From Limnobacter parvus (GTDB lineage Bacteria > Pseudomonadota > Gammaproteobacteria > Burkholderiales > Burkholderiaceae_B), in contig NZ_JANKHG010000001.1 in the NCBI RefSeq assembly GCF_024623725.1, positions 1-64,000 on the forward strand: a stretch of 64,000 bases of DNA, read 5' to 3'. A program made the position numbers and the translations under genes. Below are positions 1,111 to 64,000 of this stretch, piece by piece; the first letter of the stretch is position 1, and every line of letters begins with the position of its first letter. The notes beneath the pieces are model-generated. The model worked only from the letters and a program-made list of their open reading frames with translations, made no database searches and had not been told where the DNA came from.

Positions 1111-1272
1111 CGAAGGTCTCCGGCTTATTAATAGGAATACATATATGAGTATGGAAAGTCTAACCCCTGAATTTTGATGAATTGGGGAATTGGTAGTGAT
1201 TTGAATGAAGACGTGACTTTATTTTCTGTCTAGGACAAAATAGCGCTACGTTAGACAAAACTGGTAGTCAAG

Positions 1273-2019: not shown

Positions 2020-2033
2020 GTAAATACAAGACA

Positions 2034-3365: not shown

Positions 3366-3380
3366 GCTACTGGAGTAAAC

Positions 3381-3866: not shown

Positions 3867-3916
3867 ATGGTGTAGTCTTGATTTGAAGACTAACAAAAAG
3901 CAAAGACGGAGACGGT

Positions 3917-13466: not shown

Positions 13467-13621
13467 CTTCTGGTTGAATCGTCCTTGGTTTCCGTTTTTT
13501 CTACGGCCGCTTCATCGTCTGTTTTCTTCACAGGATGATCGACCCGCGCCCGCAAAGTCCACCACATGATAAATATGATCAGGCTTAAAGCCAAAACCAT
13601 TTCCGCAATGAGTAACCACAT
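13463..13621 (-). CDS. small single-pass membrane protein, hypothetical
   Basis: A 52-residue frame starting MWLLIAEMVLALSL, with one transmembrane helix over residues 2-21, then a basic stretch (LRARVDHPVKK) and an acidic, Lys/Glu/Asp-rich tail. This is the layout of many real small inner-membrane proteins. GGAGTGG lies about 9 nt before the ATG on the minus strand. Its start codon shares a CATG with the proposed mltA start on the other strand, so the two genes are divergent with overlapping starts. A longer frame continuing upstream to 13996 is antisense to mltA and is not credible. No named family recognised. Confidence 0.5.
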   Translation of the reverse strand: MWLLIAEMVLALSLIIFIMWWTLRARVDHPVKKTDDEAAVEKTETKDDSTRS

Positions 13622-14864: not shown

Positions 14865-14883
14865 AGCCCAACGAGCCAATAAT

Positions 14884-15663: not shown

Positions 15664-15748
15664 AAGCCTGCTTGAATTAAAAGGATTGAATTTTAGTTAA
15701 GACACATGCGAAAGCAATTTGTTCATTGCTTCAGCGTACGCGGTTTAA

Positions 15749-43256: not shown

Positions 43257-45434
43257 TTAACTCGGCCCAATTTGCTGCCTTACCTGATCAGTAAGCTTTA
43301 CCAACGAATCAGTTTCAATACTGCGGTAGTCGGCTTTCAGCACATTACTTTCCGCCAGCAAATCCAGGTACTGCGTACTGCGCTCACCACGCATTGATTT
43401 GGTGGCAGCCAACCGATCAATCAGATTGTCCATTTTCTCGTGCATTTTTTCCTGATGCTTTTTTACTTCCGCCTGCACTTGCGCATATTCCGAAGGGTAC
43501 TGTTTGTTTAAGGCCTGCTGCCACGGGTGCCAGTTGGCCAGGAAAATGTTCAGATTAGCATCCGTCGATTGTTCCTGAATTTGCCTGCGTGCGCTTTGAA
43601 TATCTTCTTCAGCTACCTGCAACGCACAACGATGAAAAATCATGTCATCAAGCTGACTGGGCAAGTTGAATTCTTTCGACAATTTCACCACGTATTTAAG
43701 AATGATCTCAGTGGGGTCTACAAATCCTACCAAGGTAGAAACTTTTTGCTGTGCAATGGTTTGAAGCAATTGTGATTTGTGCAAACCACCTGCAGTATCA
43801 ACCAGCGTGTTCAAATTCGTTTCATTCAGGCTTCGATGGTTAACTACGGATTCTTCCAGTTGAATAAAGGCCAGTGCAATTCGGTCGTCGCAGGTGGCAG
43901 TGCCTTCCACTGCCACCGCTGCGCAGTATTGAAGTAAATCAGGTGCCTGTTCAACATAGTTCAAAAAAGCGTTTATGCGCTGCACAAGGTCTTGCGGCGC
44001 TTTTTTATAATGCGCAGTTACACGCAAGCGGGCTAGTTGGCCTGAAAGCGCGGTTGCTTCGATATTTGAAAGTTCACCAAGTGCAGCCAGAAAGGCTGGC
44101 TGCTGTGCTTCGGCAGAACTATCAACCCCACCTTCTGAGCGCCAAGATGCAATTTCATCATTCAACGGCCTGGCGGCAACTCGAACATTGAATGCCGACA
44201 TGTTGTATTCCAGACAAGGAAAAATATCAGGCCCTTGACTGCGGTGGCTTGCCTGGTGCGCCACAAAGGCCTGCGCCAGCCTGTTTAGAATTGGTTGCGG
44301 CAAAGGGTTTGATTCAAGATGAACGTTGCAGCCCACAGGTAACTGCACAAGGCTTCTGGGCAGGTCTGAAAGCTGATTTTTTTTAACATTCAGCAAACGG
44401 AGTTTCTGCAAATTACCTATCGACGCCGGCAGGGTTTGCAGTTTGTTAATGGGGTAGTCGGGGTGTTCCTGACCAAACCTTTTATGAAAATAAAACTCGG
44501 TATTTCTACCCCTAATGTTGTCGACCCGAAGCTCTTGAAGTTCTGAAAGATTACCGATTGATTCGGGCAGGCTTTCAAGTTGATTGTTTTGAATAATCAA
44601 ATAACAAAGGTTGTTTAGCTGCCCAATTGAATCAGGCAAGGTTTTCAAGAAGTTGGTGTATAAATCCACTCGCCTTAGTTCAGTCAGCGAACCAAAAGTA
44701 CTGGGCAATGTTTGCAGTTGATTGTGTTGAATAGTCAAGCACCGCAAATTTTTTAACAGGCCAAATGCCAGTGGCAGATCACGAAGTTCGTTGTAAGAAA
44801 GCTCAAGGTTTTCAAGAGATTTCAGTGAAGCGATGGAAGGTGGCAATGACTCAAGTTGATTGCGCGTTAAATCCAGGGTAACCAGTTTTGAAAGCTGACA
44901 GATTGATTCAGGAACATGTTGAAATAAATTGAGTCCAAGATTGAGCGTTTCAAGCGCTGAAAGTTGAGCCATTGATTCCGGCAAACTGTGCAATTTGTTG
45001 TTACATATTTTCAGTTTTTTAAGTGTTGACAATGACCCGAATGAATCCGGCAATTCTTCGAGCAGATTGCCAGTTAGGTCAAGGTCGTGAACGCCCTTTA
45101 AAAAACCCAGGTCTTCTGGCAGTTTTTTTAATTCGAGAAAATTCAAACCCAAATAGTTGTTTGTAGGCGGGTCCGAATCAAGCGCTTGGCTTATTGAATC
45201 TATTCGGGCTGACACACTGGGTGAATGTATGCTGTCAAAGCATTCCAACATTCTCTCTTTGGCTTTCAGGCGGTTTTCTTCAGGCGCACCATCACGCACG
45301 TATTCGGTCAACATGTGCTCTACTTCAACCCGATTCATTTTGCGGGGTGGTACGTGAACAAGGCCTGGAGATTCAGTGGTGCTGGCTGGGTCTACATGCC
45401 GGGTGGCATTTGTACAATTGAAAAAACTGGGCAT
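43257..45434 (-). CDS. leucine-rich repeat protein with C-terminal NEL-type E3 ubiquitin ligase domain
   Basis: 725 residues. After a ~90-residue N-terminal region there are about eleven 23-residue LRRs (residues ~92-375) of the form L-x-x-L-x-L-x-x-N-x-L-x-x-LP-x-S-I-G-x-L. The C-terminal ~300 residues match the NEL domain of IpaH/SspH/SlrP effectors: C515 in TCDDRIALAFIQL corresponds to the catalytic Cys-x-Asp-Arg motif, followed by FVDPTEI and the W-x-P-W motif in FLANWHPWQQAL. NEL proteins transfer ubiquitin to host proteins inside eukaryotic cells, usually after type III secretion. The 23-residue repeats differ from the 20-residue repeats of IpaH. No Sec signal is seen. Confidence 0.87.
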   Translation of the reverse strand: MPSFFNCTNATRHVDPASTTESPGLVHVPPRKMNRVEVEHMLTEYVRDGAPEENRLKAKERMLECFDSIHSPSVSARIDSISQALDSDPPTNNYLGLNFLELKKLPEDLGFLKGVHDLDLTGNLLEELPDSFGSLSTLKKLKICNNKLHSLPESMAQLSALETLNLGLNLFQHVPESICQLSKLVTLDLTRNQLESLPPSIASLKSLENLELSYNELRDLPLAFGLLKNLRCLTIQHNQLQTLPSTFGSLTELRRVDLYTNFLKTLPDSIGQLNNLCYLIIQNNQLESLPESIGNLSELQELRVDNIRGRNTEFYFHKRFGQEHPDYPINKLQTLPASIGNLQKLRLLNVKKNQLSDLPRSLVQLPVGCNVHLESNPLPQPILNRLAQAFVAHQASHRSQGPDIFPCLEYNMSAFNVRVAARPLNDEIASWRSEGGVDSSAEAQQPAFLAALGELSNIEATALSGQLARLRVTAHYKKAPQDLVQRINAFLNYVEQAPDLLQYCAAVAVEGTATCDDRIALAFIQLEESVVNHRSLNETNLNTLVDTAGGLHKSQLLQTIAQQKVSTLVGFVDPTEIILKYVVKLSKEFNLPSQLDDMIFHRCALQVAEEDIQSARRQIQEQSTDANLNIFLANWHPWQQALNKQYPSEYAQVQAEVKKHQEKMHEKMDNLIDRLAATKSMRGERSTQYLDLLAESNVLKADYRSIETDSLVKLTDQVRQQIGPS

Positions 45435-45602: not shown

Positions 45603-48600
45603 TCAACCCGTTTTAATCCAGCTGGCCTTAATCGACTTGCCCGCCGCATTGGCCTTCACCGTGTTGCCCACCGCCATCAGCTCAATGCCTTCGCTGGCAA
45701 TAGTCACCACTTTGGCCTGGCCCGCATTCACAATCACGGTGGCGGTGGCGTAGCTGCCGTCCATCGCGCTGGTGTTCACCGTGTAGTGGCCGTCGCTAGG
45801 CGCAGCAAACAGGAAGGCAGGCGCACCCACACCGGCATACACTTGCGCAGCCCCAGTGTTCACCTGCTTGGCCTGTACCGAATTGGCCACGGCGGTGTTG
45901 GCTTTCAGGCTGTCTACATCCAGTTCACGAATAGCGGCCATTTCGGCTTCCAGGCGCTGGGTGTACACCGAGTTCGATCGCACTTTCTGTGCAGTGAAGT
46001 TGCTCACTTTCAATTCGGTGGCCAATACGGTTAGCAAAGAACCGTCTTCAGACGCACTGAAGGTGTTGCCCCAACGGGTGTTGATGCTGTTGATTGAATC
46101 GGTGTTGCCTTTGACTGTGCCGTCTAGCTGAACCAGTACATCGTCAAGCCGCTTGATGTCGGTGGTATTGCTTTGAATGGCCAGTGCGTTTTCAGCAATT
46201 TTCTTCACGTTGGAATCGATGGCCATTTGAAAGCCATCCATGCGGCCAACCGCTTCGGTTTTCCAGGTTTCAAGGCTGGCCACGCGGATGTCTACGCCGC
46301 TTACTTTTTCATCCAAAGCAGTAATCAACGTGCCTTGCTCGGTTACGCGATTGTCCAGTATTTTGAATTTGCTGCTTAACTGGCCCACACCCACTGCCGC
46401 CATGGCACCCAGTGCGTTGTAATCCACCGCCATGAATCCATCTGAACGCACGGCAACTGCTTCAGGAAACAAGGGTTGCAGTTCTTGCGCAATTACACCG
46501 ATTCGGCGGCCTAAATCGCGGTTGGCAATGTAGTCGTAACTGTAGGTGCGCAACATTTCCAGTTTGTCCAGCACATTGCCGGTGTCAAGCTGGCTAACAT
46601 TGGTTTTAAGCCTGCGGTCGGAACTGACGTTGAATGCAGTGGCGGTCATCGACCCCACAACGCTGAGGTTGCCGCCTGCTGTCAATGCCATATTTTGAGT
46701 GTACGCATTGGCCCCCGTTGATTCACCAAATGAGAACCCGCCAGGGCCTAAACCTTTTTGGTTGATCAGGTAAGTGGCGCCGGTACCACCATCGCGGTTC
46801 CACTGCAAGTAGGCGCCCTGTGAGTTAATGGTACTTCCTGTTACAACTTGGTTGGCATGCGAAATAATATTGCCTTGAACATACAGTTTATTACCCGGTG
46901 AATCATCGTTGCGGCTGTTGCCGCCAATGACAACCTGGTGGTTTCCATCACTGCGGCCCAGTACCATGGTGTTGCTGGTGGCAACGCGCGCATCGGCACC
47001 AATTACGGTGGCGTAGGTAAGTGCAGCACCGATTGCATCAGCGGCGTAACCAATGAAGGTGTTGTTGCTGCCTGTGGTGTTTATTGTGCCTGCATCGTCA
47101 CCCAAGGCTGTGTTCCTAAAGCCGGTGCTATTAAAAAACAGGGCGCCACCACCAATGGCCGTGTTTTCATAACCCGTGGTGTTGGTATAAAGGGAGACAT
47201 TACCGTTGGCCGTGTTTGAATAACCAGTGGTGTTGAAATACATGGAGAGCCCACCACTGGCCGTATTGCCAGACCCCGTGGTGTTGAAAAACAACGACTG
47301 ATTACCACTGGCGCTGTTATTGTTTCCAGAGATGTTGCTAAACAGGGCGCGCCTACCACTGGCCGTGTTAGCCGAACCAGTGGTGTTGGCAGCCAAAGCC
47401 TCTATACCCAAAACAGTGTTGGCGCCTGTGCCACTTTGCGCACCTGGCATTGCACCCGTGCCCACAATCATGTTGGGGATGCTTACACCACCGGCTGATG
47501 TGCTTACGTTAATCCGCGGCACATTCAGTGCACCAGCATGGTAAGCCGTACCGTCTGAATCGAAGTGGTGGCGAACAGAATTGTTTGTTGTGGCGATTTG
47601 AAAACGGTCGCCATTGCTACCATATGCAGAACCAGGGTCATCACCCAATGTCATTTGAAGAATTGAGTTGTTGTCCGATGGGTTAATACGGCCCATGAAT
47701 ATGGGGTCGCTGCCTTCATTGGCCGCACCAAACTGGATGCGCGAGTTGATGGTTGTACCCGTGCCGGATGTGTTTAATACCACATTGCCGGTAACACCTG
47801 CATTGCCGGTAACCTGCAGGCGGTTGCCGCTGCCATCGTCGCTTGCTGAAGCAAGCAACAAATTGCCTCCAGAAGTTAAACGCATGCGCTCGGCATCGGC
47901 GTTGTTCAAATTTCCGGTATTTTTTGTGCGGAAAGCAATGTGGCTAGACTGGGTGTTGTCATCCAGAAAGCGGATTGTGGCTGGTGCCGAGTTTGTGTAA
48001 CCGGGGTAACCTGCACCGGTAATGTCGACATATCCGCCCGGTGCGTACACGTCGCGAACCAAGGCCAGCGCCGTGCCGTCTGCGGGCAAATTGGCTTCAA
48101 TTGTTCCGGTAACCTGCAATTTGCTACCCCGGCCATTCGTACCGGTTGCGCCAATTACTGTGGTGTCGGTGGTGCGGCCCAGTACAACGGTGTTGCTGGT
48201 GTTTACGCTGCTAAATGAACCAATTGCTGTTGCAAACTGCAAATTGCCAGACATGTATTGGGTGTAGGCTCCCAAAGCAGTGTTATTAGAGCCAGTGGTG
48301 TTATTCATCATGGCTTGCTCGCCAATCGCTACGTTGCCTGAACCTGTTGTGTTCTCGCCCATGACACCATCGCCAACGGCAGTGTTGTCAAAGCCAGTTG
48401 TATTGTCACCCATTGCGCCCCAACCCACCGCAGTATTATCGTAACCATTGATATTGGCCTCCAACGCTCTGTAGCCAACGGCAGTGTTGTAACTTCCTGT
48501 TGTGTTCGAATCCATGGCATAAGTACCAACAGCCACGTTCTGGATAGCATTTGTATTACTATATAGTGCGTCAAAGCCCAGCGCTGTGTTGCTGTAGCCC

Positions 48601-51600
48601 GTGGTATTTGCGTACAAAGCGCGACGGCCCACGCCTGTGTTTCTTTCCCCTTGGTTGGGGTTGGTACCGTCAAGTTGGCTAAGTACACCGTCGCCAATCG
48701 CCACGTTTCCACCCGATTTAAATGTGCCACCCAAGGCATTGGTGCCCAAAGCCAGGTTTGGCGCGGCGGTGACAGTACTTTGGCTTGCAAAGGTGAGTGC
48801 CGCGTCTATATTTGGTTTAGTAAGGGCTTTCACTTCAACCCCGTTGGCAAACAAGGTGTTGGCATACAATGCGCCGTTGAAGTTGCTAATACCGTTCACA
48901 TACAGCTTGGTGTTTGCGTAGGTGTTGTTGCGGGTGGCGGTGCCGATCACAATTTGATCAACTGTGCTGTTGCGACCCAAGGCTATGGTGTTACTGGTGG
49001 CAACAGTACTACTTGCGCCAATGGCTGTGGCATATGTTAATGCACCGCTAGTCGCGTCTGCATCGTAACCAAAAAATGAGTTGTTGCTACCAGTGGTTAT
49101 TGTATTACCACTAAGACGACCAAATGCCGCATTGTCGGAACCAATTGTATTTGCAAACAAGGCTTCTCTGCCATAAGCAACGTTGCCATCACCTGAAACG
49201 TTATTTGATAATGCATTAAAACCAGTGGCGACGTTTCTGCTGCCTGTGGTGTTGTCGTACAAAGCGTACGCGCCGATGGCAACGTTGAAACTACCAGTGG
49301 TGTTCGAGACAGCAGCAAAGTAACCATTGGCCGTGTTTTCAAAACCAGAAGTGTTACTTCGCAAAGCATTCCCACCGGTCGCCACATTGGCACCGCCTGT
49401 TGTGTTCGCCGCCAGTGCTTGACTACCCACGGCCGTATTGTCACCATAGCCGGACTGCACCCCAGCCATTGCTCCTGAGCCAATGATCATGTTGGGGTTA
49501 GTTACACCCGCAGTTGCAGACAAATCCAGCCGCTGAAGTGAAAGCGAACCCATGGTCACCGCACCACTAAAATTGGCTGTAGTGCCATACAATGCGCCGT
49601 TGAAGTTGCTAATACCGTTCACATACAGCTTGGTGTTTGCGTAGGTGTTGTTGCGGGTATTGGTGCCAATAACTACCTGATCAGCATTGCTGTTGCGGCC
49701 CAATGCAATCGTGTTGCTGGTGGCAACAAGGCTGTTCGAACCAATTGCGGTTGCATAGGTAAGCGCACCGGTTGTTGCATCGGCGTAATAGCCAAGAAAT
49801 GTGTTGTTACTACCGGTGGTGTTTGTTCCGCCACTGCTGTTACCAAAAGCAGTGTTGTCATTGCCCGTGGTGTTGCTGCTTAACGCCCATGATCCACTTG
49901 CCGAGTTATCGCTACCCGTGGTGTTGTCGTTCAATGCACCATAGCTGGTTGCAGCGTTGCCGGTACCACTTGTATTAGAAAACAATGACTGGCTTCCGAT
50001 TGCTGTATTCCAGTTGCCAATGGTGTTATTCCCCATAGATTGATTGCCAATCGCCGTATTCTGCTGACCGGTGGTGTTACGCATCAGTGCAGACGCACCA
50101 TAAGCAGAATTTGAGCCTCCAGAGGTGTTGTAATACATTGCAGCAGCGCCTGTGGCGGTGTTGTTGCTACCTGTTGTGTTTGAAAACAAGGTACGGTTGC
50201 CAGTCGCGGTGTTGTCATAACCTGTAGTGTTTGCTGCAAGTGCGCTGATACCCAGCGCCGTGTTGGCACCCAAACCACTTTGTGCACCCGCCATAGCACC
50301 AGTACCAATAATCAGGTTGGGGTCTGTTACTCCCCCTGCGCTTGTTGAAATATTCAGCCTTTCCACCGCAAACGAACCCATGCTGACTGCGCCAGTGAAA
50401 ACAGCCGTAGTGCCATATAGTGTGCCGTTCAAACGAGTGTCGCCATTCACGTACAGCTTGGTGTTGGCGGTGGTGTTGTTGCGGGTATTGGTGCCAATCA
50501 CTACCTGATCCACGTTGCTGTTGCGGCCCAAAGCGATGGTGTTGCTAGTGGCAACAAGGCTGTTCGAGCCAATCGCCGTTGCATAGGTAAGCGCGCCGCT
50601 GGTTGAATTGGCCTCGTTACCCAAAAATGTGTTGTTGCTACCCGTGGTGTTTGCGTTGCCCGAGTTATAACCAAAGGCAATGTTGTTGGAACCGGTTGTG
50701 TTGGCAGAAAGCGCACCTGCGCCATTCACGGCGTTGCGGTTGCCAGACACGTTGGCATACATGGCTGCATCGCCAATGGCCGTGTTTTGGTAACCAACGG
50801 TGTTGAACAGCAATGCGGCGTCGCCCATTGCGGTGTTGGAATAACCCGTGGTGTTGTTGTACATCACCCCGTCGCCAGCCACAGTGTTTTTGTAACCCGT
50901 GGTGTTAGAGAACAAGGAGAAATTACCCGTTGCGGTGTTGTAAAAACCGTTTGTGTTGCTGGCCAATGAACCCATGCCCACCGCGGTATTTCCACCCGTG
51001 CCACTTTGCGCGCCCACCATGGCGCCCATGCCGATAATTACGTTGTCGTTAAGCACACCACCTGCGCTGGTTGCAATGTCCAGCCTTTCCACAGCAAATG
51101 CCCCCATGCTAACCGCACCGGTGAATACAGCATTTGTGCCGTACAAAGTACCGTTCAAGCGCGTGTCGCCATTCACGTACAGTTTTGTATTGGCGGTGGT
51201 GTCGTTGCGTGTATTTGTACCAATAACAATTTGATCAACGTTGCTGTTGCGGCCAAGGGCAATGGTGTTGCTGGTGGCGACGCGGCTGGCTGCACCTATT
51301 GCACTGGCGTAAGTGAGTGCGCCGCTTGCTGCATTGGCATCGAAACCAAGGAAAGTGTTGTTGCTGCCGGTGGCGTTTGAATCGCCTGCATCTTTACCCA
51401 AAGCCGTGTTGTTAATTCCCGTAGTGTTGAAATACAGGGCGCCACTGCCACTAGCTGTATTGCTGTAACCAGTGGTGTTGGAATACAAGGCGTCCCAACC
51501 ACTTGCCATGTTGTAGTAACCCGTGGTGTTGCTGTACAGCGAGCGGTAACCACTGGCTGTGTTTTGGCTGCCTGAGGTGTTTGTACGCAGAGCCCCGAAA

Positions 51601-54600
51601 CCAATTGCCATATTGCTTCCACCAGTGGTGTTTGCAGCCAAAGCCTGGTAGCCAGTGGCCGTATTGAGGCTACCAGTGGTGTTTACAGCCAGTGCGGACA
51701 AGCCCAATGCCGTGTTGCCACCGGCTCCACTTTGCACACCTACCATGGCACCCGTGCCCACAATCATGTTGGCGGTGGTTACACCGACTGATGTAGTAAC
51801 GTTAAGCCGTGCAGCGGCAAGTGAACCCACCGTAACTGCACCGCTGAAGTCGGCAGTGGTACCGTACAGCATGCCGTTTAAGCGCGTGTCTCCATTCACG
51901 TACAGTTTGGTATTGGCGGTGGTGTCGTTGCGGGTGGCTGTACCAATTACAATTTGGTCTAAGTTGCTGTTGCGGCCCAGGGCGATGGTGTTGCTGGAGG
52001 CGACGCGGCTGCCTGAACCGAATGCTGTTGCGTAGGTGAGTGCAGCGCTGGTCGCATTGGCATCTCTACCAATAAATGTGTTGTTGCTGCCGGTGGTATT
52101 CGTAGCACCTGCACGAGTACCCAGTGCCGTGTTATCGAAACCCGTGGTGTTAACGACCAAAGCTTCCGTACCAGATGCTACGTTGTTATAACCAGTGGTA
52201 TTGTCACTGAGAGAATAGTTACCAGAGGCCACGTTGTAATAGCCTGTGGTGTTTCGGAAAAGAGCATAACTGCCCGATGCCATATTATCGAAGCCGGTGG
52301 TGTTGTAGTACAACGCATTACTGCCATTTGCAACGTTATAGCGACCTGTGGTGTTCGAGTACAACGCACGATAACCACTTGCAGTGTTTTCATCTCCGGT
52401 GGTGTTGGAGTACAAGGCACGATAACCACTCGCAGTGTTGTAAAAACTGTCGGTGTTGGCAGCCAATGCACCAATACCCACTGCGGTGTTGCCACCAAAA
52501 CCACTTTGCGCTAGCGGCATGGCACCCGTGCCCACAATCATATTGGGCATGGTTACGCCACCAGCGCTGGTTGACACATCCAGCCGCTGAACAGCCAGTG
52601 AATTCATGGTGACCGCACCGCTGAAGGTGGCATTTGTTCCGTACAAAGTACCGTTCAAGCGAGTGTCGCCATTCACGTACAGCTTGGTGTTGGCGGTGGT
52701 GTTGTTGCGGGTGTCGGTGCCAATTACTACCTGGTCAATGTTGCTGTTGCGGCCTAAGGCGATGGTGTTGCTGGTGGCCACTGTGCTTTGTGCGCCAATG
52801 GCAGCAGCATAGGTGAGTGCGCCGCTGGTTGCATCGGCATAGTAACCAATAAAAGTGTTATTGCTGCCGGTGGTGTTCGAAGTGCCGGTTAGTCTGCCCA
52901 ACGCCGTGTTGTCATTACCCGTGGTGTTGCCACTCAGTGAGCCCCAACCACTGGCCGTGTTGCCTCTACCCGTGGTGTTGTAATAAAGGGAGGAATAACC
53001 GGTTGCCGTATTGCCGTCACCCGTGGTGTTGGAATACATGGAGTTAGAACCACTTGCTGTGTTGGTGTTACCCGTGGTGTTGGAATACAGGGAGTAAATA
53101 CCATTGGCTGTGTTACTGCCGCCCGATATGTTTGCAGCCAAAGCGTTGATACCCAAAGCGGTGTTAGCACCAAAACCACTCTGCGCAAGCGGCATGGCAC
53201 CTGCACCCGCAATCATGTTGGGCTCACTTACACCACCTGCACTGGTTGACACATCCAGCCGCTGAACAGCTAGTGAATTCATGGTTACCGCACCGCTGAA
53301 GGTGGCATTTGTACCGTACAGCATGCCGTTCAGGCGGGTGTCGCCATTCACGTACAGCTTGGTATTGGCGGTGGTGTTGTTGCGGGTGTCGGTGCCAATT
53401 ACTACCTGGTCAACGTTGCTGTTGCGGCCTAAGGCGATGGTGTTGCTGGTGGCCACCCGCGCGTCGGAACCAATGATGGTGGCGTAACTGAGGTTGCCGG
53501 AAACAACATCGGCATTGGCACCCAAAGCAGAGTTGTTGAAACCATCCAGGTTATTGGACAATGCACTGTAACCCACCGCGCTGTTGTTATATCCATTTCG
53601 GGTACCCGTTAGCACATCTGTGCCGATGCCCGAGTTTTGATAGGCCAGGTCAGCGTTGACCATTGCATAGTTACCCACTAGGGAGTTGGAGCTGCCATCA
53701 CCTGAATACATATTCAATGCGCCAATTGAGACGTTGTCAGTAGCGCCATTGCCACTAAACAGCATTGATTCCCAGCCCATTGCAATGTTGTAATTACCCA
53801 CTGTGCTTGAGGTCATCACGAGGGAACCAATGGCAATGTTGTAAAAACTGTCCGTTGCGCCGGTTAATGTGGCTCGGCCAAGGGCTACGTTGCCCCAACC
53901 TGTGATATTTGCACCCAAAGCTGAAGTACCTAGAGCCGTGTTTTGCTGACCTGTGGTGTTTGCATCCAAAGCATTGTAACCACTGGCTGTGTTTGAGCTG
54001 CCTGTGGTGTTTGCAGCCAAAGCACCGTAACCGCTGGCTGTGTTTGAGTTGCCTGAGGTATTTGAAGCAAGTGTATTAATACCCAAAGCGGTGTTGCGGC
54101 CTGAGCCACTTTGCGCTAGCGGCATGGCACCCGTGCCCACAATCATGTTGGGGTTGGTTACACCACCCGCGCTGGTTGATACATCCAGCCTTGCTGCTGC
54201 AAGCGACCCAACTGTAACCGCACCACTGAAGGTGGCTGTAGTGCCGTACATTGCACCGTTGAAGTTGCTGATTCCATTGACATACAGCTTGGTGCCAGCA
54301 TAGGTGTCGTTGCGGGTGTCGGTGCCAATTACAATTTGATCCAGGTTGCTATTGCGGCCGAGGGCAATGGTGTTGCTGGTGGCCACTCGGCTGGTGGCAC
54401 CGATTGCGGTGGCGTAGGTAAGTGCCGCGCTTGTTGCATCAGCATCGTAACCAATGAATGTGTTGTTACTGCCGGTGGTGTTTGTATTACCGGTTTGGTA
54501 GCCAAGTCCTGTGTTGTTGAAACCTGTGGTGTTGCTGTAATAAGACTCATACCCCACTACAGTGTTGTTATAGCCCGTGGTGTTATCATGAGAGGCTTCA

Positions 54601-57600
54601 TAGCCAGTTGCAACGTTACGGAAACCTGTGGTGTTGCTGAACAACGCAGCATCACCCGTGGCGATGTTGCTGTAGCCTGTGGAGTTGCGAAACAAAGCAC
54701 TATTGCCCGTGGCAATGTTGCCGGAACCCGTGGTGTTGTAATACAACGCACTGTCACCCATGGCAACGTTGTTGACGCCCGTGGTGTTGTAATACAACGC
54801 ACTATTGCCCGTGGCCGTGTTCTGGCGACCCGTGGTGTTGCTGTACAACGATTGATATCCACTGGCCGTATTGTGATAACCCGTTGTATTGGCAGCCAAG
54901 GCTTGTATGCCCAAAGCGGTGTTGCCACCGAAACCAGTTTGCGCAAGCGGCATGGCACCCGTGCCCACAATCATGTTGGGGTTGGTTACACCACCTGCGC
55001 TGGTTGACACATCCAGCCGCTGAACAGCCAGTGAATTCATGGTGACCGCACCACTGAAGGTGGCGTTGGTGCCGCGTAAATCGCCATTCAAATTGGTTAC
55101 GCCGTTCACGTATAGCTTGGTGTTTGCAAAGGTGTCGTTGCGTGTATCTGTGCCAATTACAATTTGATCAAGCGCGCTGTTTCGGCCAAGTGCGATTGTG
55201 TTGCTGGTGGCTACCCGCGCGTCGGAACCAATGATGGTGGCGTAACTGAGGTTGCCGGAAACAACATCGGCATTCGCACCCAAAGCAGAGTTGTTAAAAC
55301 CAGTGGTGTTAACCAAAAGTGCGTTGTAACCTACCACGCTGTTGTTGTAACCGCTGGTGGTGCCGCTTAGGCTGTAAGTGCCAAGAGTCGTATTCTGATA
55401 ACCAGTAGTCAAAAAATTAGAAGAACTAGCACCTATAGTAATATTGCGGCTGCCACTACCACCGTTATACATGGCGTAATCGCCCAGGGCAATGTTGTCG
55501 TCGCCCGTGGCAGAACTGCCAAACATGGCCAGGTTACCAATTGCGAGGTTGGAAACGCCTAGATTGGTAGCACCACTAAATGCCCGGTAACCAATGGCGA
55601 TATTGTAATAACTGTCGGTCGCATTCAGCAGAGCGCTTGAGCCAACTGCAATGTTGTAGTAGCTATCAGTAATTGAACTTAATGTATCACGCCCTATCGC
55701 AACGTTTCGTTCACCGGTGGTGTTGGAATCCAGCGCAAATGCGCCCAGCGCCACGTTGCCAACACCTGTTGTGTTGGCAGCCAAAGCCTGGTAACCACTG
55801 GCTGTGTTATACCTGCCCGATGTGTTTGCAGCCAATGCACTGATACCCAAAGCGGTGTTGCCACCTAAACCAGTTTGCGCAAGCGGCATGGCACCCGTGC
55901 CCACGATCATGTTGGGGTTGGTTACACCACCCGCGCTGGTTGACACATCCAGCCGCTGAACAGCCAGTGAATTCATGGTGACCGCACCGCTGAAGGTGGC
56001 ATTTGTTCCGTACAAAGTACCGTTCAAGCGAGTGTCGCCATTCACATACAGCTTGGTGTTGGCGGTGGTGTCGTTGCGGGTGTCGGTACCAATTACGACT
56101 TGATCAAGGTTGCTGTTGCGGCCAAGCGCGATTGTGTTGCTGGTGGCAACGCGGCTACCCGCGCCAATTGCGGTGGCGTAGCCCAGTGCAGCACTGGTTG
56201 CATCGGCATCGAACCCCAGAAACAGATTGTTGCTGCCGGTGGTATTGGTTTGGCCCGCACTGTGACCCAGTGCAGTGTTTTGAACACCTGTTGTTGTGTC
56301 ACCTAGCGCAGCGAAACCCGTTGCGGTGTTCAAGTAACCCGTTGTATTGCTGTACAGCGCGGCGTGACCAATGGCTGTGTTGTGGTCGCCTGAAGTATTG
56401 TTGTATAGCGAGTTAGTTCCCAGTGCCGAGTTGTAAAAACCGTTGGTGTTTACCTGCAATGCTGCACTGCCCACGGCCACGTTGTATGCACCTGTGGTGT
56501 TGGCAGCCATTGCGTTAACACCCAAGGCGGTGTTGGCACCAAAACCACTTTGCGCGCCCACCATGGCACCCGTGCCAACAATCATGTTGCGGTAAGTTAC
56601 ACCACCAGCTGATGTTGAAACATTGATACGGTCCGCAGTTACAGCACCCGTAAACGTAGCCGACGTGCCGCTAAACGTATTGGCTGCAAAATCACCGACA
56701 ATGGCCAGGTTGCCGCTAATACCCACATCGCCAGTAACCTGCAACCGCTTGTTCTGCAAAATGCCGCTAGTGGCTGTGCCGGTAGCGCCGATTACGGTGA
56801 AGTCGCCAACACGGCCAAGGGCAATGGTATTGCTGGTGGAAACACGGCTATCCGCACCAATGGCTGTGGCATAGCCCAATGCGCCTGTTGTCGCATCGGC
56901 GTAGATACCAATGAAACTGTTGTTGCTGCCCGTGGTGTTTGAAGTGCCAGCAAAACGACCTACGGCTGTGTTGTTGGTGCCAGTGGTGTTGACAGGCAAA
57001 GCGTTTTGACCGAATGCTGAATTGTTGCTGCCCGTGGTGTTAAAGTTCAAGGCATTGCGGCCAAGCGCGGTATTGAAAGAGCCAGTGGTGTTGCGCGTCA
57101 GCGCTGCGCGCCCCAGTGCGGTGTTTTCCGAACCTGTGGTATTGTCCTGCAAAGCCAAGATACCCACGGCTGTATTAGCCCCAGCGCCACTTTGCACACC
57201 AACCATGGCATCTGTGCCAATAATCATGTTGGGTAAGGTAACGCCTGTAGGGTCAGCAACATTCAAGCGCAACGTAGTGAGTGAACCGACATTCACAGCC
57301 CCGGTGAATGTCGCTGCGGTGCCCATTAAATCGCCGTTCAGCATCATGCCGCCAAACGTGGGTGTGCTGGTAACGCCAATGGCTTGGGGCAGGCTTAGCA
57401 CCACGTCGCCGTTGTTGGCACTGGCCACAATTTGGTCGGCTGTGCCGGTAATGCTAAGCACTCCGGCGTTGCCAATGGTAATGGCACCCGCGTCGTTCAA
57501 CACGGAAATGCCTGCACCTGCGGTCAGCGTGCCCAGGGTAAAGCCACTGCCGTTGCCAATCAGCAAAGTGCCGTTGGCCGCGGCTGCGCCGTTTACACCT

Positions 57601-58547
57601 GTGCCGCCAAATTCAGGGCTAATAACGCCTGAACTGAAATTGGCTGCATTCAAATCAGTTAAGCCTGCGCCGTTGCCGGTGAAGGTGGCAGCAGCCACAT
57701 CGCCGGTAAACACGGCGCTTGCACCGCTAACCGCGCCTGTTACTGCCACGGTAGTGGCTTGAAAATCGGCCACTGTAACGGTGCCGCCGGTGTAGCTAAT
57801 GGCGCCTGTGCCATTCACTGCGGAATTGTCGCTAAACGGGCTGGCTTGTACGCCTGTCCATACGCCATTCACGTAGCTGTACAGTTTGTTGGTGTCTAGC
57901 ACCAAGCGAATGTCGCCTTCTTCACCCGGGGTGGTCAGCAAATCAGCTTCGGTGCCCACTGCGGTTTTGTACTGCTTGCTTGAAACCTGAATGGGTGCGG
58001 TTACCTGCACATGGTCGTCGCCCACACCCACGCCATTTTGCAAAATGTAGGCGCAGGTGGTTTGCATGGCACCGTTTAACCCTGGCGACACAACGGCATA
58101 CACCAAGGGGTTACCAACACCCTGCCCTGCATTGTAGTCTGCACTGGTTACTGCAGATTCATTGTCCCAGGCGCAATAACCCAGTGGCCTGCCTGCGCCA
58201 TCGCGTTGGGGCAAGTTCACATTGTTGGGCACTGAACCCATGTCGGCAGGAAAACCCGTGGGGCGTGGGCCCATGGCCGGGCCACGTTGCTGGCCACCCA
58301 CATCGGCAACATAACCCTGCATGCCCAGTGAAACTTGCGTCACCGTGTTTTTAAGCGTGAACTGGCGCACCAACTGGGTGGCGGTGAACGCGGCGGCTGA
58401 ATCGCTGCTGCGGCTTGATGCGGGTTGCGAGATCGACAACGCCAGGCTTAAGCCCACCACATAGGGCAAGGCGTGCCGCACGGCGGTAACCAGGGGGCGT
58501 TCATGAAAACTGCCGGTGTGCTGTGAATGTTGTGTGTTCTTTTTCAT
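45603..58547 (-). CDS. giant head-repeat fibre protein with S74 tail-fibre chaperone domain
   Basis: About 4,314 residues from ATG 58547 (AGAGG upstream; a GTG one codon earlier is possible). A signal peptide covers about residues 1-45. Next is a unique N-terminal domain with a few Cys to ~residue 430, then ~3,450 residues of 'NTALGxxALxxNTTGxxN' head-type repeats in 13 modules. Each module ends in a segment like ATSNTIALGR followed by TKLYVNG. From ~3,970, SSDRRLKTNV and RRIGVIAQELQPLFPEAV form a peptidase S74 intramolecular chaperone (Ser at 3,976), as in phage tail fibres. A further ~235 coiled and beta-rich residues follow. The minor-pilin stop overlaps its ribosome-binding site. Confidence 0.85.
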   Translation of the reverse strand: MKKNTQHSQHTGSFHERPLVTAVRHALPYVVGLSLALSISQPASSRSSDSAAAFTATQLVRQFTLKNTVTQVSLGMQGYVADVGGQQRGPAMGPRPTGFPADMGSVPNNVNLPQRDGAGRPLGYCAWDNESAVTSADYNAGQGVGNPLVYAVVSPGLNGAMQTTCAYILQNGVGVGDDHVQVTAPIQVSSKQYKTAVGTEADLLTTPGEEGDIRLVLDTNKLYSYVNGVWTGVQASPFSDNSAVNGTGAISYTGGTVTVADFQATTVAVTGAVSGASAVFTGDVAAATFTGNGAGLTDLNAANFSSGVISPEFGGTGVNGAAAANGTLLIGNGSGFTLGTLTAGAGISVLNDAGAITIGNAGVLSITGTADQIVASANNGDVVLSLPQAIGVTSTPTFGGMMLNGDLMGTAATFTGAVNVGSLTTLRLNVADPTGVTLPNMIIGTDAMVGVQSGAGANTAVGILALQDNTTGSENTALGRAALTRNTTGSFNTALGRNALNFNTTGSNNSAFGQNALPVNTTGTNNTAVGRFAGTSNTTGSNNSFIGIYADATTGALGYATAIGADSRVSTSNTIALGRVGDFTVIGATGTATSGILQNKRLQVTGDVGISGNLAIVGDFAANTFSGTSATFTGAVTADRINVSTSAGGVTYRNMIVGTGAMVGAQSGFGANTALGVNAMAANTTGAYNVAVGSAALQVNTNGFYNSALGTNSLYNNTSGDHNTAIGHAALYSNTTGYLNTATGFAALGDTTTGVQNTALGHSAGQTNTTGSNNLFLGFDADATSAALGYATAIGAGSRVATSNTIALGRNSNLDQVVIGTDTRNDTTANTKLYVNGDTRLNGTLYGTNATFSGAVTMNSLAVQRLDVSTSAGGVTNPNMIVGTGAMPLAQTGLGGNTALGISALAANTSGRYNTASGYQALAANTTGVGNVALGAFALDSNTTGERNVAIGRDTLSSITDSYYNIAVGSSALLNATDSYYNIAIGYRAFSGATNLGVSNLAIGNLAMFGSSATGDDNIALGDYAMYNGGSGSRNITIGASSSNFLTTGYQNTTLGTYSLSGTTSGYNNSVVGYNALLVNTTGFNNSALGANADVVSGNLSYATIIGSDARVATSNTIALGRNSALDQIVIGTDTRNDTFANTKLYVNGVTNLNGDLRGTNATFSGAVTMNSLAVQRLDVSTSAGGVTNPNMIVGTGAMPLAQTGFGGNTALGIQALAANTTGYHNTASGYQSLYSNTTGRQNTATGNSALYYNTTGVNNVAMGDSALYYNTTGSGNIATGNSALFRNSTGYSNIATGDAALFSNTTGFRNVATGYEASHDNTTGYNNTVVGYESYYSNTTGFNNTGLGYQTGNTNTTGSNNTFIGYDADATSAALTYATAIGATSRVATSNTIALGRNSNLDQIVIGTDTRNDTYAGTKLYVNGISNFNGAMYGTTATFSGAVTVGSLAAARLDVSTSAGGVTNPNMIVGTGAMPLAQSGSGRNTALGINTLASNTSGNSNTASGYGALAANTTGSSNTASGYNALDANTTGQQNTALGTSALGANITGWGNVALGRATLTGATDSFYNIAIGSLVMTSSTVGNYNIAMGWESMLFSGNGATDNVSIGALNMYSGDGSSNSLVGNYAMVNADLAYQNSGIGTDVLTGTRNGYNNSAVGYSALSNNLDGFNNSALGANADVVSGNLSYATIIGSDARVATSNTIALGRNSNVDQVVIGTDTRNNTTANTKLYVNGDTRLNGMLYGTNATFSGAVTMNSLAVQRLDVSTSAGGVSEPNMIAGAGAMPLAQSGFGANTALGINALAANISGGSNTANGIYSLYSNTTGNTNTASGSNSMYSNTTGDGNTATGYSSLYYNTTGRGNTASGWGSLSGNTTGNDNTALGRLTGTSNTTGSNNTFIGYYADATSGALTYAAAIGAQSTVATSNTIALGRNSNIDQVVIGTDTRNNTTANTKLYVNGDTRLNGTLYGTNATFSGAVTMNSLAVQRLDVSTSAGGVTMPNMIVGTGAMPLAQSGFGGNTAVGIGALAANTDSFYNTASGYRALYSNTTGDENTASGYRALYSNTTGRYNVANGSNALYYNTTGFDNMASGSYALFRNTTGYYNVASGNYSLSDNTTGYNNVASGTEALVVNTTGFDNTALGTRAGATNTTGSNNTFIGRDANATSAALTYATAFGSGSRVASSNTIALGRNSNLDQIVIGTATRNDTTANTKLYVNGDTRLNGMLYGTTADFSGAVTVGSLAAARLNVTTSVGVTTANMIVGTGAMVGVQSGAGGNTALGLSALAVNTTGSLNTATGYQALAANTTGGSNMAIGFGALRTNTSGSQNTASGYRSLYSNTTGYYNMASGWDALYSNTTGYSNTASGSGALYFNTTGINNTALGKDAGDSNATGSNNTFLGFDANAASGALTYASAIGAASRVATSNTIALGRNSNVDQIVIGTNTRNDTTANTKLYVNGDTRLNGTLYGTNAVFTGAVSMGAFAVERLDIATSAGGVLNDNVIIGMGAMVGAQSGTGGNTAVGMGSLASNTNGFYNTATGNFSLFSNTTGYKNTVAGDGVMYNNTTGYSNTAMGDAALLFNTVGYQNTAIGDAAMYANVSGNRNAVNGAGALSANTTGSNNIAFGYNSGNANTTGSNNTFLGNEANSTSGALTYATAIGSNSLVATSNTIALGRNSNVDQVVIGTNTRNNTTANTKLYVNGDTRLNGTLYGTTAVFTGAVSMGSFAVERLNISTSAGGVTDPNLIIGTGAMAGAQSGLGANTALGISALAANTTGYDNTATGNRTLFSNTTGSNNTATGAAAMYYNTSGGSNSAYGASALMRNTTGQQNTAIGNQSMGNNTIGNWNTAIGSQSLFSNTSGTGNAATSYGALNDNTTGSDNSASGSWALSSNTTGNDNTAFGNSSGGTNTTGSNNTFLGYYADATTGALTYATAIGSNSLVATSNTIALGRNSNADQVVIGTNTRNNTYANTKLYVNGISNFNGALYGTTANFSGAVTMGSLSLQRLDLSATAGVTNPNMIIGSGAMAGVQSGYGDNTAVGSQALAANTTGGANVATGGNALRSNTSGFENTANGYFAAVSNTTGSFNVAIGAYALYDNTTGSRNVATGFNALSNNVSGDGNVAYGREALFANTIGSDNAAFGRLSGNTITTGSNNSFFGYDADATSGALTYATAIGASSTVATSNTIALGRNSTVDQIVIGTATRNNTYANTKLYVNGISNFNGALYANTLFANGVEVKALTKPNIDAALTFASQSTVTAAPNLALGTNALGGTFKSGGNVAIGDGVLSQLDGTNPNQGERNTGVGRRALYANTTGYSNTALGFDALYSNTNAIQNVAVGTYAMDSNTTGSYNTAVGYRALEANINGYDNTAVGWGAMGDNTTGFDNTAVGDGVMGENTTGSGNVAIGEQAMMNNTTGSNNTALGAYTQYMSGNLQFATAIGSFSSVNTSNTVVLGRTTDTTVIGATGTNGRGSKLQVTGTIEANLPADGTALALVRDVYAPGGYVDITGAGYPGYTNSAPATIRFLDDNTQSSHIAFRTKNTGNLNNADAERMRLTSGGNLLLASASDDGSGNRLQVTGNAGVTGNVVLNTSGTGTTINSRIQFGAANEGSDPIFMGRINPSDNNSILQMTLGDDPGSAYGSNGDRFQIATTNNSVRHHFDSDGTAYHAGALNVPRINVSTSAGGVSIPNMIVGTGAMPGAQSGTGANTVLGIEALAANTTGSANTASGRRALFSNISGNNNSASGNQSLFFNTTGSGNTASGGLSMYFNTTGYSNTANGNVSLYTNTTGYENTAIGGGALFFNSTGFRNTALGDDAGTINTTGSNNTFIGYAADAIGAALTYATVIGADARVATSNTMVLGRSDGNHQVVIGGNSRNDDSPGNKLYVQGNIISHANQVVTGSTINSQGAYLQWNRDGGTGATYLINQKGLGPGGFSFGESTGANAYTQNMALTAGGNLSVVGSMTATAFNVSSDRRLKTNVSQLDTGNVLDKLEMLRTYSYDYIANRDLGRRIGVIAQELQPLFPEAVAVRSDGFMAVDYNALGAMAAVGVGQLSSKFKILDNRVTEQGTLITALDEKVSGVDIRVASLETWKTEAVGRMDGFQMAIDSNVKKIAENALAIQSNTTDIKRLDDVLVQLDGTVKGNTDSINSINTRWGNTFSASEDGSLLTVLATELKVSNFTAQKVRSNSVYTQRLEAEMAAIRELDVDSLKANTAVANSVQAKQVNTGAAQVYAGVGAPAFLFAAPSDGHYTVNTSAMDGSYATATVIVNAGQAKVVTIASEGIELMAVGNTVKANAAGKSIKASWIKTG
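46880..57260 (-). repeat. 13 degenerate tandem modules of the giant fibre gene
   Basis: The TSNT(I/V/M)xLGR codons recur at about 46953, 48174, 48971, 49695, 50521, 51248, 51971, 52748, 53421, 54353, 55181, 56115 and 56812, so modules are roughly 670-930 bp, with the distal one about 1.2 kb. Some stretches are nearly identical between distant modules (for example 52564-52700 and 55933-56069). Each module contains several short 'NTTGxxN' units, giving a dense low-complexity DNA pattern. Confidence 0.9.
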
Positions 58548-58555
58548 CACGACCT

Positions 58556-60008: not shown

Positions 60009-60893
60009 TTAACCAAGTTCTACTTTGGCTTTTCTTCGGGCTTGTTCCAGTTCTTCATTAAACTTCTGCATCGCAAGGGCTTGAACAATGTCTTGTTTCA
60101 AGTCTTCCATCTTGGGCTTGTCAATCTTTTTGCTGTCCTCGATTTTCAGAATCAGCAAGCCATTGCGCAGTTGCAAGACTTCGCTGTACTCGCCTTTCTT
60201 CATCTTGGACACCACGCGCCCCAAGTTGTAAGGCAAGGCAGACGCTGCAGCAAAACCATCGCCTTGTTCAATCAGTGGCTTTAGCTGTTCTTCAGCGTCT
60301 TTGTCGCCTTTCTTGAGGCTGGCCAGTGTTTTTTGCACGTCGTTGGCGTCGACACTCAAGTAGTAGCTGACTTTCCATAGCTGGAAGTTTTGATCAAGCA
60401 CATTGGCGTCGTAGTAGGTTTTTACTTCTTCGTCACTTACACCTTTGCGAAGGTCTTCCATGCGGCGGGTGGTGTAAAGCGTTGAAAGTACTTCGCGCTC
60501 TGCGGCTTGCAGGGTTGCTTGCGCTTCTTCGGCGTACATTTTTCGACCCAACTCGGCGGCAATTACTTTGTTGATGTAGCGGTCAATCACGATGGCTTTG
60601 TCTACACCCGACTGCAGCAAACCGCCCACTTCCATTTCGGTCACTTTCATGCCGTCGATGCTGGCCAGCACCACGTCACTGCCCTTGTTGGCGGCGTTTG
60701 CATTGGCCAGTGGTGAAACACCCGAGCTGCTTGATGCCGAATCACCGAACACGGTCATGCCCGCCCAGGCCACAAGGCCTACGAAGGCCAAGCCCGCACC
60801 GCCCATAATTAATTTTGTTCGGGTGTCAGTTTTCGCGGAAGAGGCTTCAACGGGTTGGGCAAACTCTTCATTCAGTGTGTTCATGTCATTCAT
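60009..60893 (-). CDS. membrane-anchored PpiC/SurA-like peptidyl-prolyl isomerase-type protein
   Basis: 294 residues. A cytoplasmic N-terminus, a transmembrane helix at about 28-48 (IMGGAGLAFVGLVAWAGMTVF), a Ser/Ala linker, then a SurA-like helical N domain (VVLASIDGMKVTEMEVGGLL) and a parvulin-like region around 165-260 containing YNLGRVVSKMKKGEYSEVLQL and GLLILKIEDSKKIDKP. Such proteins assist folding of exported subunits; here the likely clients are the pilins and the giant fibre. Its start overlaps the preceding gene by 8 nt. Catalytic competence of the short parvulin region is uncertain. Confidence 0.78.
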   Translation of the reverse strand: MNDMNTLNEEFAQPVEASSAKTDTRTKLIMGGAGLAFVGLVAWAGMTVFGDSASSSSGVSPLANANAANKGSDVVLASIDGMKVTEMEVGGLLQSGVDKAIVIDRYINKVIAAELGRKMYAEEAQATLQAAEREVLSTLYTTRRMEDLRKGVSDEEVKTYYDANVLDQNFQLWKVSYYLSVDANDVQKTLASLKKGDKDAEEQLKPLIEQGDGFAAASALPYNLGRVVSKMKKGEYSEVLQLRNGLLILKIEDSKKIDKPKMEDLKQDIVQALAMQKFNEELEQARRKAKVELG

Positions 60894-62247: not shown

Positions 62248-63498
62248 TTAGGATCCTGAAATCACCAGTTCGTTTTGCAGGTACACCACCGCAAGGCTGA
62301 AAAGCACCGCAATGCCGGAATACACAAGCGAGCCCACAAAGGCGAGAATCGCGAATCTGCGTGCTGCGGAATTGGCTTTGTCCTCGCGGGTTTGTGAAAT
62401 TGAGGCCAAACACTCGGCCAATTGGGTTTGGTCTTTGTGAGCGCGTATCAGCAGCCTTTCGCTGCTGTCGAGCAACATGTGATTGAATGCGCTTGCCGGT
62501 TGCTCGCCGATTTCACTGCGGTTGGTGATGTCTTCCCAAAAGCGTGTAATGGTGGGGGTGATGGTGCCCTTGCGCGCAATTTGCACTGCATTCAAAAACG
62601 CAACACCGCCTGTTAACAGCGAACCCAGCACACGGGTTGTTGCAGCCATGCCGGAAGATATCAACAGCTCGCCAATCACTGGTACTTTTTCCAGCATGGC
62701 AAAGGCCTGGGTTCTGGTTTTCTGGTCGGGCGACAACACCATCATGGTGAAATAAATCAACACCAGCATGAACACAAACGAGAACGCCAAAAGGCCGTTG
62801 TTGACCTGTTCAGCAAGCGCCAGCGAACTTTCAAACTGAGCAATTTTTTCCGGGTCCTCACTCATCAGCGGAGTGCCCTTCAATTGCTCGATCAAGCCGA
62901 AGCGCATGCCCACCACGGTGGACACTGCCATGATCAAATCAAGCGCAGTCCAGGTGACTGCACCAAACATCAACTTGAAAGTTGCGGAACCCTTTTCATA
63001 AAAACTAACCGCTGTTTCAAGCGCTTTGCTAAGCTGCCCGGCTGTTTCACCGGCACGCAGAACCGCCAGTGTTGAATCATCGAACCAATTCAACAATTCA
63101 AGGGCTTGAACAAATCCAAAACCCTGTCGAAGTGCATTCAATGCTTGATTCAAGACCAAACGTTGCTCGCCCAGCTCGCCCAAAATAACCTGTTCCAATG
63201 CTTTTTCAGGCGACAGGCCTGAACGCACATTGAATGCCAAAGCCTGCAAGAATTTTTGTTTGTAACTGCGGCTTACCTTGGATGCAAACAGCCTTTGCAA
63301 TGCGCCTTTTGAACGCACTTCAAAAATATCGAGTACAACCCCACCCCGGTCAATCACCTGCTGAATGGCCTCGCGTTTTCGGGAAGCAGTAATAACAAGT
63401 TCGTGACGGAAATAGCCGGTTAAACGATCATCTGGGCGCGCAGTGGCGTCGAGCATTTGCGGTGCAAGATATTGAACCCTGTAGTTTGCAATGGCCAT
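62248..63498 (-). CDS. GspF/PilC-type inner-membrane platform protein
   Basis: About 416 residues from ATG 63498; a longer in-frame start at 63549 would overlap the GspE-like gene. Two GspF (T2SSF) domains are visible: AFNVRSGLSPEKALEQVI ... FDDSTLAVLRAGETAGQLSKALE in the first half, and LISSGMAATTRVLGSLLTGGVAFLNAVQIA in the second. Hydrophobic segments are near 165-190, 240-265 and at the C-terminus (IAVLFSLAVVYLQNELVISG). It is the integral platform of type IV pili or type II secretion, working with the ATPase encoded just upstream. Confidence 0.9.
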   Translation of the reverse strand: MAIANYRVQYLAPQMLDATARPDDRLTGYFRHELVITASRKREAIQQVIDRGGVVLDIFEVRSKGALQRLFASKVSRSYKQKFLQALAFNVRSGLSPEKALEQVILGELGEQRLVLNQALNALRQGFGFVQALELLNWFDDSTLAVLRAGETAGQLSKALETAVSFYEKGSATFKLMFGAVTWTALDLIMAVSTVVGMRFGLIEQLKGTPLMSEDPEKIAQFESSLALAEQVNNGLLAFSFVFMLVLIYFTMMVLSPDQKTRTQAFAMLEKVPVIGELLISSGMAATTRVLGSLLTGGVAFLNAVQIARKGTITPTITRFWEDITNRSEIGEQPASAFNHMLLDSSERLLIRAHKDQTQLAECLASISQTREDKANSAARRFAILAFVGSLVYSGIAVLFSLAVVYLQNELVISGS

Positions 63499-63502
63499 GC
63501 GC

Positions 63503-64000
63503 TTACTCCACCGCACCGAATAGTTGGGCCACGCTGCGCCAATCCACAAGCCCCTGGTCCATCAGGGTTTGCAATGTGTCCAGGCGGCTGGTGTACTCCA
63601 CACCATTTTCTTCGCGCAAGTCCACTGGCAATTCAAGCTCATTGTTCTTGAATGCCCGCACAAAGTTGGCCCTCATTCCTTCATTGGTGGGCACATGCAA
63701 AGTTTCATGCGCGGCCACACGACCTGAATACCCAGTGCTTGCGCAGCGCGTGCAACCAGTTTTCTTTTTAAGGCCGGGGCGGGCTTGAATCAACCCACCT
63801 GTTAGTCGCAGGGTGTGGCTTTGTAGCTGTTCAATTTCGTCGTTGTGCATGGGCTTGGCACATGAACACAAACGTCGCATCAAGCGCTGGTGCACCACCA
63901 TGCGCAAGAAGTGCGCAATCAGAAATTCTGAATCGGCCCGGTGCGAAGGGTCGATCATCGACAAAAACCGTTCGCTGACTTGAATCACGCTGTTGGCGTG
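63503..64000 (-). CDS. GspE/PilB-type secretion ATPase, C-terminal part (5' end outside window)
   Basis: The frame runs off the window edge, so the Walker A region is not visible. The ~165 C-terminal residues show the tetracysteine zinc region of GspE/PilB ATPases: RLMRRLCSCAKP, then CTRCASTGYSGRVAAHETLHV. They also keep the typical FLRMVVHQRLMRRL motif before it. It ends 4 nt before the GspF-like start. A GTG at 63988 is only an in-frame codon, not the true start. Confidence 0.88.
   Translation of the reverse strand, partial: HANSVIQVSERFLSMIDPSHRADSEFLIAHFLRMVVHQRLMRRLCSCAKPMHNDEIEQLQSHTLRLTGGLIQARPGLKKKTGCTRCASTGYSGRVAAHETLHVPTNEGMRANFVRAFKNNELELPVDLREENGVEYTSRLDTLQTLMDQGLVDWRSVAQLFGAVE

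Follow-up and report, generated by a model that had tools for sequence, protein, structure and literature searches.

A giant S74-bearing fibre encoded by the last gene of a type IV pilus-like operon in Limnobacter parvus

Type IVb pili are equipped in several bacteria with dedicated proteins encoded alongside the pilus itself. One such example is PilV from the IncI1/IncI2 type IVb pili of R64, R721 and TP114 (PF04917), which is encoded by the last pilus gene, joins a constant N-terminal part to a variable adhesive remainder, and is described as an adhesin that binds and chooses recipient cells (PMC9045228). A second solution is provided by TcpF of Vibrio cholerae and CofJ of ETEC, small Sec-exported proteins encoded with the pilus that engage it through a short flexible pilus-binding peptide; TcpF is reported to be trimeric, to bind a trimeric minor pilin in a 3:3 arrangement and to be carried on it through the secretin (PMC9565799), and CofB is described as forming a trimeric tip (PMC7248040). 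Comparable building blocks are found in phage fibres and tailspikes of the S74 type (endosialidase, T5 L-fibre, SPO1), which combine head repeats, an S74 domain with a Ser-Lys pair and a tailspike-like jelly roll, and in the YadA-type trimeric autotransporters, which bear head repeats.

A giant fibre gene of Limnobacter parvus, lying on the minus strand at 45603..58547 of the window (the whole 64,000-nt stretch of DNA analysed here), brings several of these features together. On the best reading of the tests made, its product resembles PilV and TcpF/CofJ in its way of working and belongs to neither. Like PilV, it is encoded by the last pilus gene, has a constant N-terminal part followed by a variable body, and contains a trimerisation module that also occurs in a PilV protein of another genome; unlike PilV, it has neither a class III leader nor Glu5, its C-terminus is constant as well, it carries an S74 chaperone, and it is up to ten times longer. 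In agreement with this, Shufflon_N (PF04917) was not matched in the fibre by a library that detects it in R721 PilV and in P0012. With TcpF and CofJ the fibre shares putative Sec export and a gene encoded with the pilus, but it is a giant product in which a whole conserved domain takes the place of the short peptide for putative pilin binding. It differs from the S74 phage proteins in an N-terminal domain (N-domain) specific to a pilus system and in a jelly roll that follows the predicted cut, and from the YadA-type proteins, with which it shares head repeats and a presumed trimeric state, in the absence of a detected barrel and in its separate export machine. A preliminary description of this DNA had proposed a new class of pilus-linked adhesin; this term is too strong, because PilV (PMC9045228) and TcpF/CofJ (PMC9565799), as portrayed in these sources, already work along the same general lines. 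Among the literature matches listed, from a collection that leaves out most subscription journals, nothing concerned this operon or an S74 fibre tied to a pilus.

The fibre is encoded by a single frame of 4,315 codons (45603..58550, minus strand) uninterrupted by stops, which agrees with the length of about 4,300 residues first proposed. Translation from the ATG at 58545-58547 gives 4,314 residues and from the GTG at 58548-58550 gives 4,315; residues are numbered here from the GTG. The host contig has 414,625 bases and belongs to a genome of 25 contigs listed as 99.87% complete. The frame opens 5 nt past the prepilin-like gene P0004 (58556..59098), whose product has the cleavage site G|FIASY with Tyr at position 5. 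Upstream of it lies P0005 (59271..59960; G|FIQAA, without Glu5), the first prepilin-like protein and presumed major pilin, so that the reported coupling to a prepilin-like gene is correct apart from the number of such genes, which is two rather than one. These are preceded, all on the minus strand, by the membrane-anchored PpiC-type protein P0006 (Rotamase_2; 60009..60893; PF13145, E 3.6e-11), by P0007 (P7; 60886..61371), a single-TM protein of unassigned family conserved in the operon, by P0008 (P8; 61368..62243), a bitopic protein specific to this operon type and used as its marker, by a GspF/PilC-type inner-membrane protein (62248..63549; PF00482, E 7.2e-21), and by the C-terminal part of a GspE/PilB-type ATPase (63503..64000; PF00437), which has 592 aa in full and whose gene leaves the window and reaches contig position 65281. 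Still farther upstream lie genes for an exported protein of 281 aa and for a BfpB-like secretin (66073-67773). A single operon is likely, because the largest intergenic gap from secretin to fibre is about 170 nt; promoter and terminator scans gave results close to the shuffle background. The fibre is the terminal gene of a conserved pilus-like operon, in keeping with the earlier mention of type IV pilus-like genes upstream.

The export machinery points towards type IVb pili. The closest solved relative of the secretin is BfpB, the T4b secretin of the bundle-forming pilus (E 1.2e-9), and comparison with PilN of R721 by hhalign gave P 2.3e-5 at a probability of 76%; the ATPase matches R721 PilQ at E 3e-25. 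The GspF protein gave no blastp match to R721 PilR at E 1, and neither blastp nor hhalign related P8, P7, the PpiC protein or the 281-aa protein to R721 pilus proteins. A prepilin peptidase is encoded in the genome, as is a separate GspG-bearing system. Major pilins normally carry Glu5. This residue is missing from all 11 aligned P0005 sequences, which have the G|F site, and from all 10 aligned P0004 sequences, where Tyr stands in its place. Neither P0004 nor P0005 matched the pilin families of Pfam, and the Rhodoferax homologue of P0005 matched PilS at E 0.061, under the cut-off.

The fibre itself does not have a prepilin-type start. In its place stands a Sec-type leader (58410..58547), read by eye from a basic N-region and the hydrophobic core LPYVVGLSLALSISQPA, with the class III motif G|[FM]xxxE absent. 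The conserved N-domain follows (58002..58415), a helix and then a beta sheet with an invariant YCA...C...DD pattern. Its structure model shows a weak, middling fold similarity to the pseudopilins GspG, XcpG and EpsG, which are the most similar in VIA; Foldseek with the N-terminal model returned nothing at E 0.001. Profile comparison with GspG (15 sequences) gave no significant match (P 0.32, and 0.084 with two more sequences); its register (DGxGRPLGYC against DPWGQPYQY) agrees with the fold match and by itself is no evidence. The N-domain profile showed no significant similarity to the operon pilins P0004 and P0005 or to R721 PilV in its pilin part, and none of the profiles searched against the PDB (N-domain, P5, P4, P8) gave a credible result. 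The next segment, a trimerisation module (57804..57980), is similar to those of collagen XV/XVIII and of phage tails, and it recurs in a 486-residue protein of a Burkholderiales genome, G323 (HMM E 2.5e-6 and 1.7e-6). With a PF04917 match at E 1.6e-16 and with PilS, PilM and PilO encoded in the same type IVb pilus operon, this protein is a true PilV, and in it the module sits between the pilin part and the tip.

Several of these features would also fit a type II-like secretion system devoted to one substrate, in which the fibre, once complete, would be pushed through the secretin by a short pseudopilus and then released or held at the surface, and no long pilus would be built. The Sec-type leader, the N-domain closest to pseudopilins in VIA, the pilins lacking Glu5, and a set of operon genes that, as far as seen, includes neither a lytic transglycosylase nor a retraction ATPase are all consistent with such a system. 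However, the secretin is closest to BfpB and the ATPase is PilQ-like, the trimerisation module held in common with PilV indicates a pilus tip, and the genome already has a GspG-bearing system elsewhere. Taken together, secretion of the type II kind appears unlikely, while still deserving consideration.

The link between operon and fibre was examined across genomes by a search for P8, with the fibre not used as a query, in 84,980 species genomes, which yielded 18 confirmed loci. P8 relatives come from Limnobacter species, uncultured Burkholderiales and, more distantly, Noviherbaspirillum. In 17 of the 18 loci, the HMM of the fibre N-domain is matched by the gene that directly follows the second prepilin-like one, and 11 of these 17 count as independent because the other six come from genomes used in building the HMM; this genome-context check, seeded by P8, bears out the association described from the single locus. 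In the one exception (L042), the operon is rearranged and a fibre was not found, and in a metagenome assembly (L034) the fibre is broken into two frames. Of the 16 genomes of the genus, 14 have the N-domain, 15 have P8 and 14 have both, always on one strand and separated by at most 5.6 kb; G903 has neither, and G904 (85% complete) has P8 alone. Five further genomes of the genus repeat the order secretin, 281-aa protein, ATPase, GspF, P8, P7, PpiC, pilin, pilin, fibre. Beyond it, the N-domain and P8 appear rare in the genomes sampled: the N-domain occurs in 9 of 151 family genomes, seven of them within the genus, and order-wide in 4 of 399, where P8 occurs in 2 of 399, few genus members having been drawn. 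In Limnobacter litoralis (L027/L028), the ATPase, the GspF protein, the 281-aa gene and half of P8 are missing between the secretin and P7, and the fibre frame is open; there, the fibre is either served by another motor or undelivered.

A 257-kb Rhodoferax ferrireducens plasmid, typed as conjugative, has this operon as well, with a fibre whose body differs. The plasmid fibre has 1,049 residues and only the N-domain in common with that of L. parvus (34.5% identity over 131 residues), and tail-fibre assembly is represented on the plasmid by a gene of its own (PF16778). Five imperfect pairs of shufflon-like inverted repeats (72-81%) were seen in this fibre region, none of them convincing. Downstream of the Rhodoferax fibre (L031:18944-21758, plus strand) lie genes for a glycine-rich 301-aa ORF, a tail-fibre assembly protein, a sulfotransferase and an adenylyl-sulfate kinase, and the gene content suggests sulfation near the plasmid fibre genes. 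The conjugative plasmid, together with the recipient-choosing role described for PilV (PMC9045228), raises the idea of a mating-pair or contact pilus, in which the same machine would hold partner cells for DNA transfer. In Limnobacter, however, the operon occurs in 14 of 16 genomes and lies on large contigs (414 kb here, at most 3.5 Mb), and a role in mating is considered improbable.

A more distant genome, G320, contains adjacent fibre-like genes (L052:11504-19260, plus strand), one with S74 (PF13884, E 1.1e-15) and one with a prepilin-like start and a GYCxWD domain; the start of the latter is unlike that of the fibre in the window. A PilS-type pilin is encoded 9 kb from these genes. A phylum-wide search for the divergent G320 N-terminus gave 0 of 398 genomes, a count that is uninformative since the set held no known positive.

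The shaft of the L. parvus fibre (46872..57233, minus strand; residues about 440-3893) consists of 13 modules of 17-residue head repeats and linkers, which confirms the number of head-repeat modules counted at first. The 13 module ends follow the pattern SNT[I/V/M][A/V]LG. A total of 74 repeats exceed a cut-off placed slightly higher than the best score from 20 shuffles of the fibre protein, an in-sample count, as the matrix was learned from 46 of the fibre's own repeats; the spacing is exactly 17 for 54 of 73 neighbouring pairs. At the DNA level, tandem arrays of 51-bp (or 102-bp) units account for eight of the nine rows of the repeat listing. With duplicate copies of a fibre and fragments no longer than 100 aa excluded, the nearest relative of an internal module lies in the same protein in nine of 12 cases, is tied in one and lies in another species in two. 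This predominance of same-protein relatives indicates that module duplication within the lineage built the shaft, which evolves in this way as both ends stay constant. Complete fibres span 840 to 4,315 residues, and the same repeat scan found head repeats absent from the Noviherbaspirillum, L045, L049 and Rhodoferax fibres.

The C-terminal end is modelled as an S74 autocleavage domain, a coiled coil and a tailspike-like jelly roll. Peptidase_S74, an intramolecular chaperone (46455..46622, minus strand), is matched at residues 3977-4032 with E 5.9e-15, exceeding the Pfam cut-off, and is the sole S74 match detected in the genome. The tail-fibre chaperone reported earlier is therefore present, as a domain within the fibre protein itself rather than as a separate gene. 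Its dyad consists of Ser3977 and Lys3982, a spacing of five, as in the catalytic pairs given for MyRF (S587/K592) and the endosialidase endoNF (S911/K916) (PMC8326128). The pair at this spacing is invariant in all ten complete fibres aligned, namely that of L. parvus and nine from the 18 loci; L033, L034, L037, L038, L040, L041, L043 and L048, which run off the locus edge or are split, and the fibreless L042 were left out. In all ten, S74 is followed by a conserved domain closing on a W-I/L-K/R-x-G/H motif. Between the two, the structure model contains a long helix of about 120 residues (46062..46421, minus strand) that is probably a trimeric coiled coil, and the constant jelly-roll domain (45606..45860, minus strand) is similar to tailspikes and T4 gp9. 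Both ends of the fibre are under purifying selection, with dN/dS of about 0.16 for the N-domain and about 0.13 for the C-terminus, values that are rough because dS is above 1. The jelly roll is conserved despite its position past the predicted S74 cut; perhaps it serves as a clamp during folding and is then lost, or perhaps no cut takes place.

The YadA-like head repeats would suit a trimeric autotransporter adhesin whose barrel has escaped recognition. Against this, Pfam searches to E 0.5 showed no YadA-type anchor, and the conserved C-terminus after S74 is predicted to be a jelly roll, in agreement with the original remark that there is no obvious autotransporter barrel; such an adhesin is hardly credible here. 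The head repeats and S74 also match phage tail proteins, as would be expected if the gene were a chromosomal tail-fibre remnant of a prophage or tailocin. One head-repeat module is matched in 48 phage records, at 37-43% identity among the matches listed, and the PHROGs of the shaft are tail spike and virion structural. Yet a search of 50,697 phage records at E 0.001 gave no match to the N-domain, no relative of it is encoded by any of 31 pattern stretches on viral contigs, a PHROG is absent for P0004, P0005, P0007, P0008 and P0009, and pilus synteny and purifying selection are maintained, which makes a phage remnant very unlikely. Judged by sequence matches, the shaft is of phage type and the putative docking end belongs to the pilus system, because the former matches phage tail proteins and the latter gave no match in the phage records and viral contigs searched. 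Neither of the two findings that the preliminary description had named against itself and that can be checked from sequence, a C-terminal barrel and a prophage remnant, appeared.

With these alternatives weighed, it is rather probable that the product forms a trimeric fibre, that it is loaded in the periplasm, and that it stands at the tip of a type IVb-like pilus (or a long pseudopilus) or is pushed out by it. Judging from the leader, Sec would export the fibre as a soluble periplasmic protein. The predicted folds suggest that it would trimerise through its N-terminal module, coiled coil and jelly roll, folded by the S74 chaperone and perhaps assisted by the PpiC protein. The conserved pair is consistent with a cut before Ser3977, which would release a 3,976-residue fibre from the chaperone, coil and jelly roll. 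By analogy with PilV and TcpF/CofJ, and given the invariant gene order, the N-domain would then dock on the Glu5-less pilins, and the growing pilus would drive the rod through the secretin. Delivery would thus fall to the pilus and adhesion to the fibre, whose variable shaft would set the reach and bind a surface, a cell or a glycan. Several observations sit less easily with this model: the pilins lack Glu5 and Pfam pilin matches, R721 pilus counterparts are missing for P7, P8, the PpiC protein, the 281-aa protein and (by blastp) GspF, the N-domain gave no profile match to pilins and only a middling pseudopilin fold match, the jelly roll is conserved past the predicted cut, L. litoralis keeps the fibre without the operon's motor, and L042 and the 85% complete G904 have P8 and no fibre hit.

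A more specific form of the pilus-loaded fibre is proposed tentatively, with less than even confidence: a phage tail fibre may have been domesticated as a pilus harpoon, in which an anchorless domain with a pilin-like fold, exported by Sec, would insert into a Glu5-less pilus or cap it, the chains ranging from 840 to more than 4,300 residues. The trimer might leave through the secretin, with S74 self-cutting arming it and module duplication tuning its reach. If true, this would constitute a third route for type IV filament cargo, beside PilV fusions and TcpF/CofJ passengers, and type IV filaments could carry very long trimeric fibres made of phage tail parts. The passage of a folded rod through a secretin, the timing of surface display by the S74 cut and the assembly of Glu5-less pilins would then become testable. 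Nature supplies a length series, from relatives of 840 aa with few or no head repeats to the expanded form of 4,315 aa, as well as a comparison in the motorless L. litoralis operon.

Other genes near these operons were recorded as well. Upstream of the operon in locus L002, two adjacent, similar-looking ORFs of 427 and 372 aa (13315-14598 and 14674-15792, plus strand) are reminiscent of acetyltransferase effectors, but had no credible Pfam match, and Pfam did not bear out a 'YopJ-like' assignment. In the window, an 822-aa protein (40658-43126, minus strand), encoded past the gene that adjoins the fibre, matched nothing in Pfam, NCBIfam (E 0.1) or PHROGs. The adjoining gene itself (43257-45434, minus strand) encodes a protein of 725 aa that combines leucine-rich repeats with a NEL E3 ubiquitin ligase domain (PF14496, E 4.7e-33) and resembles type III effectors, and one T3SS is listed for Limnobacter sp. 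MED105 (PMC2702493).
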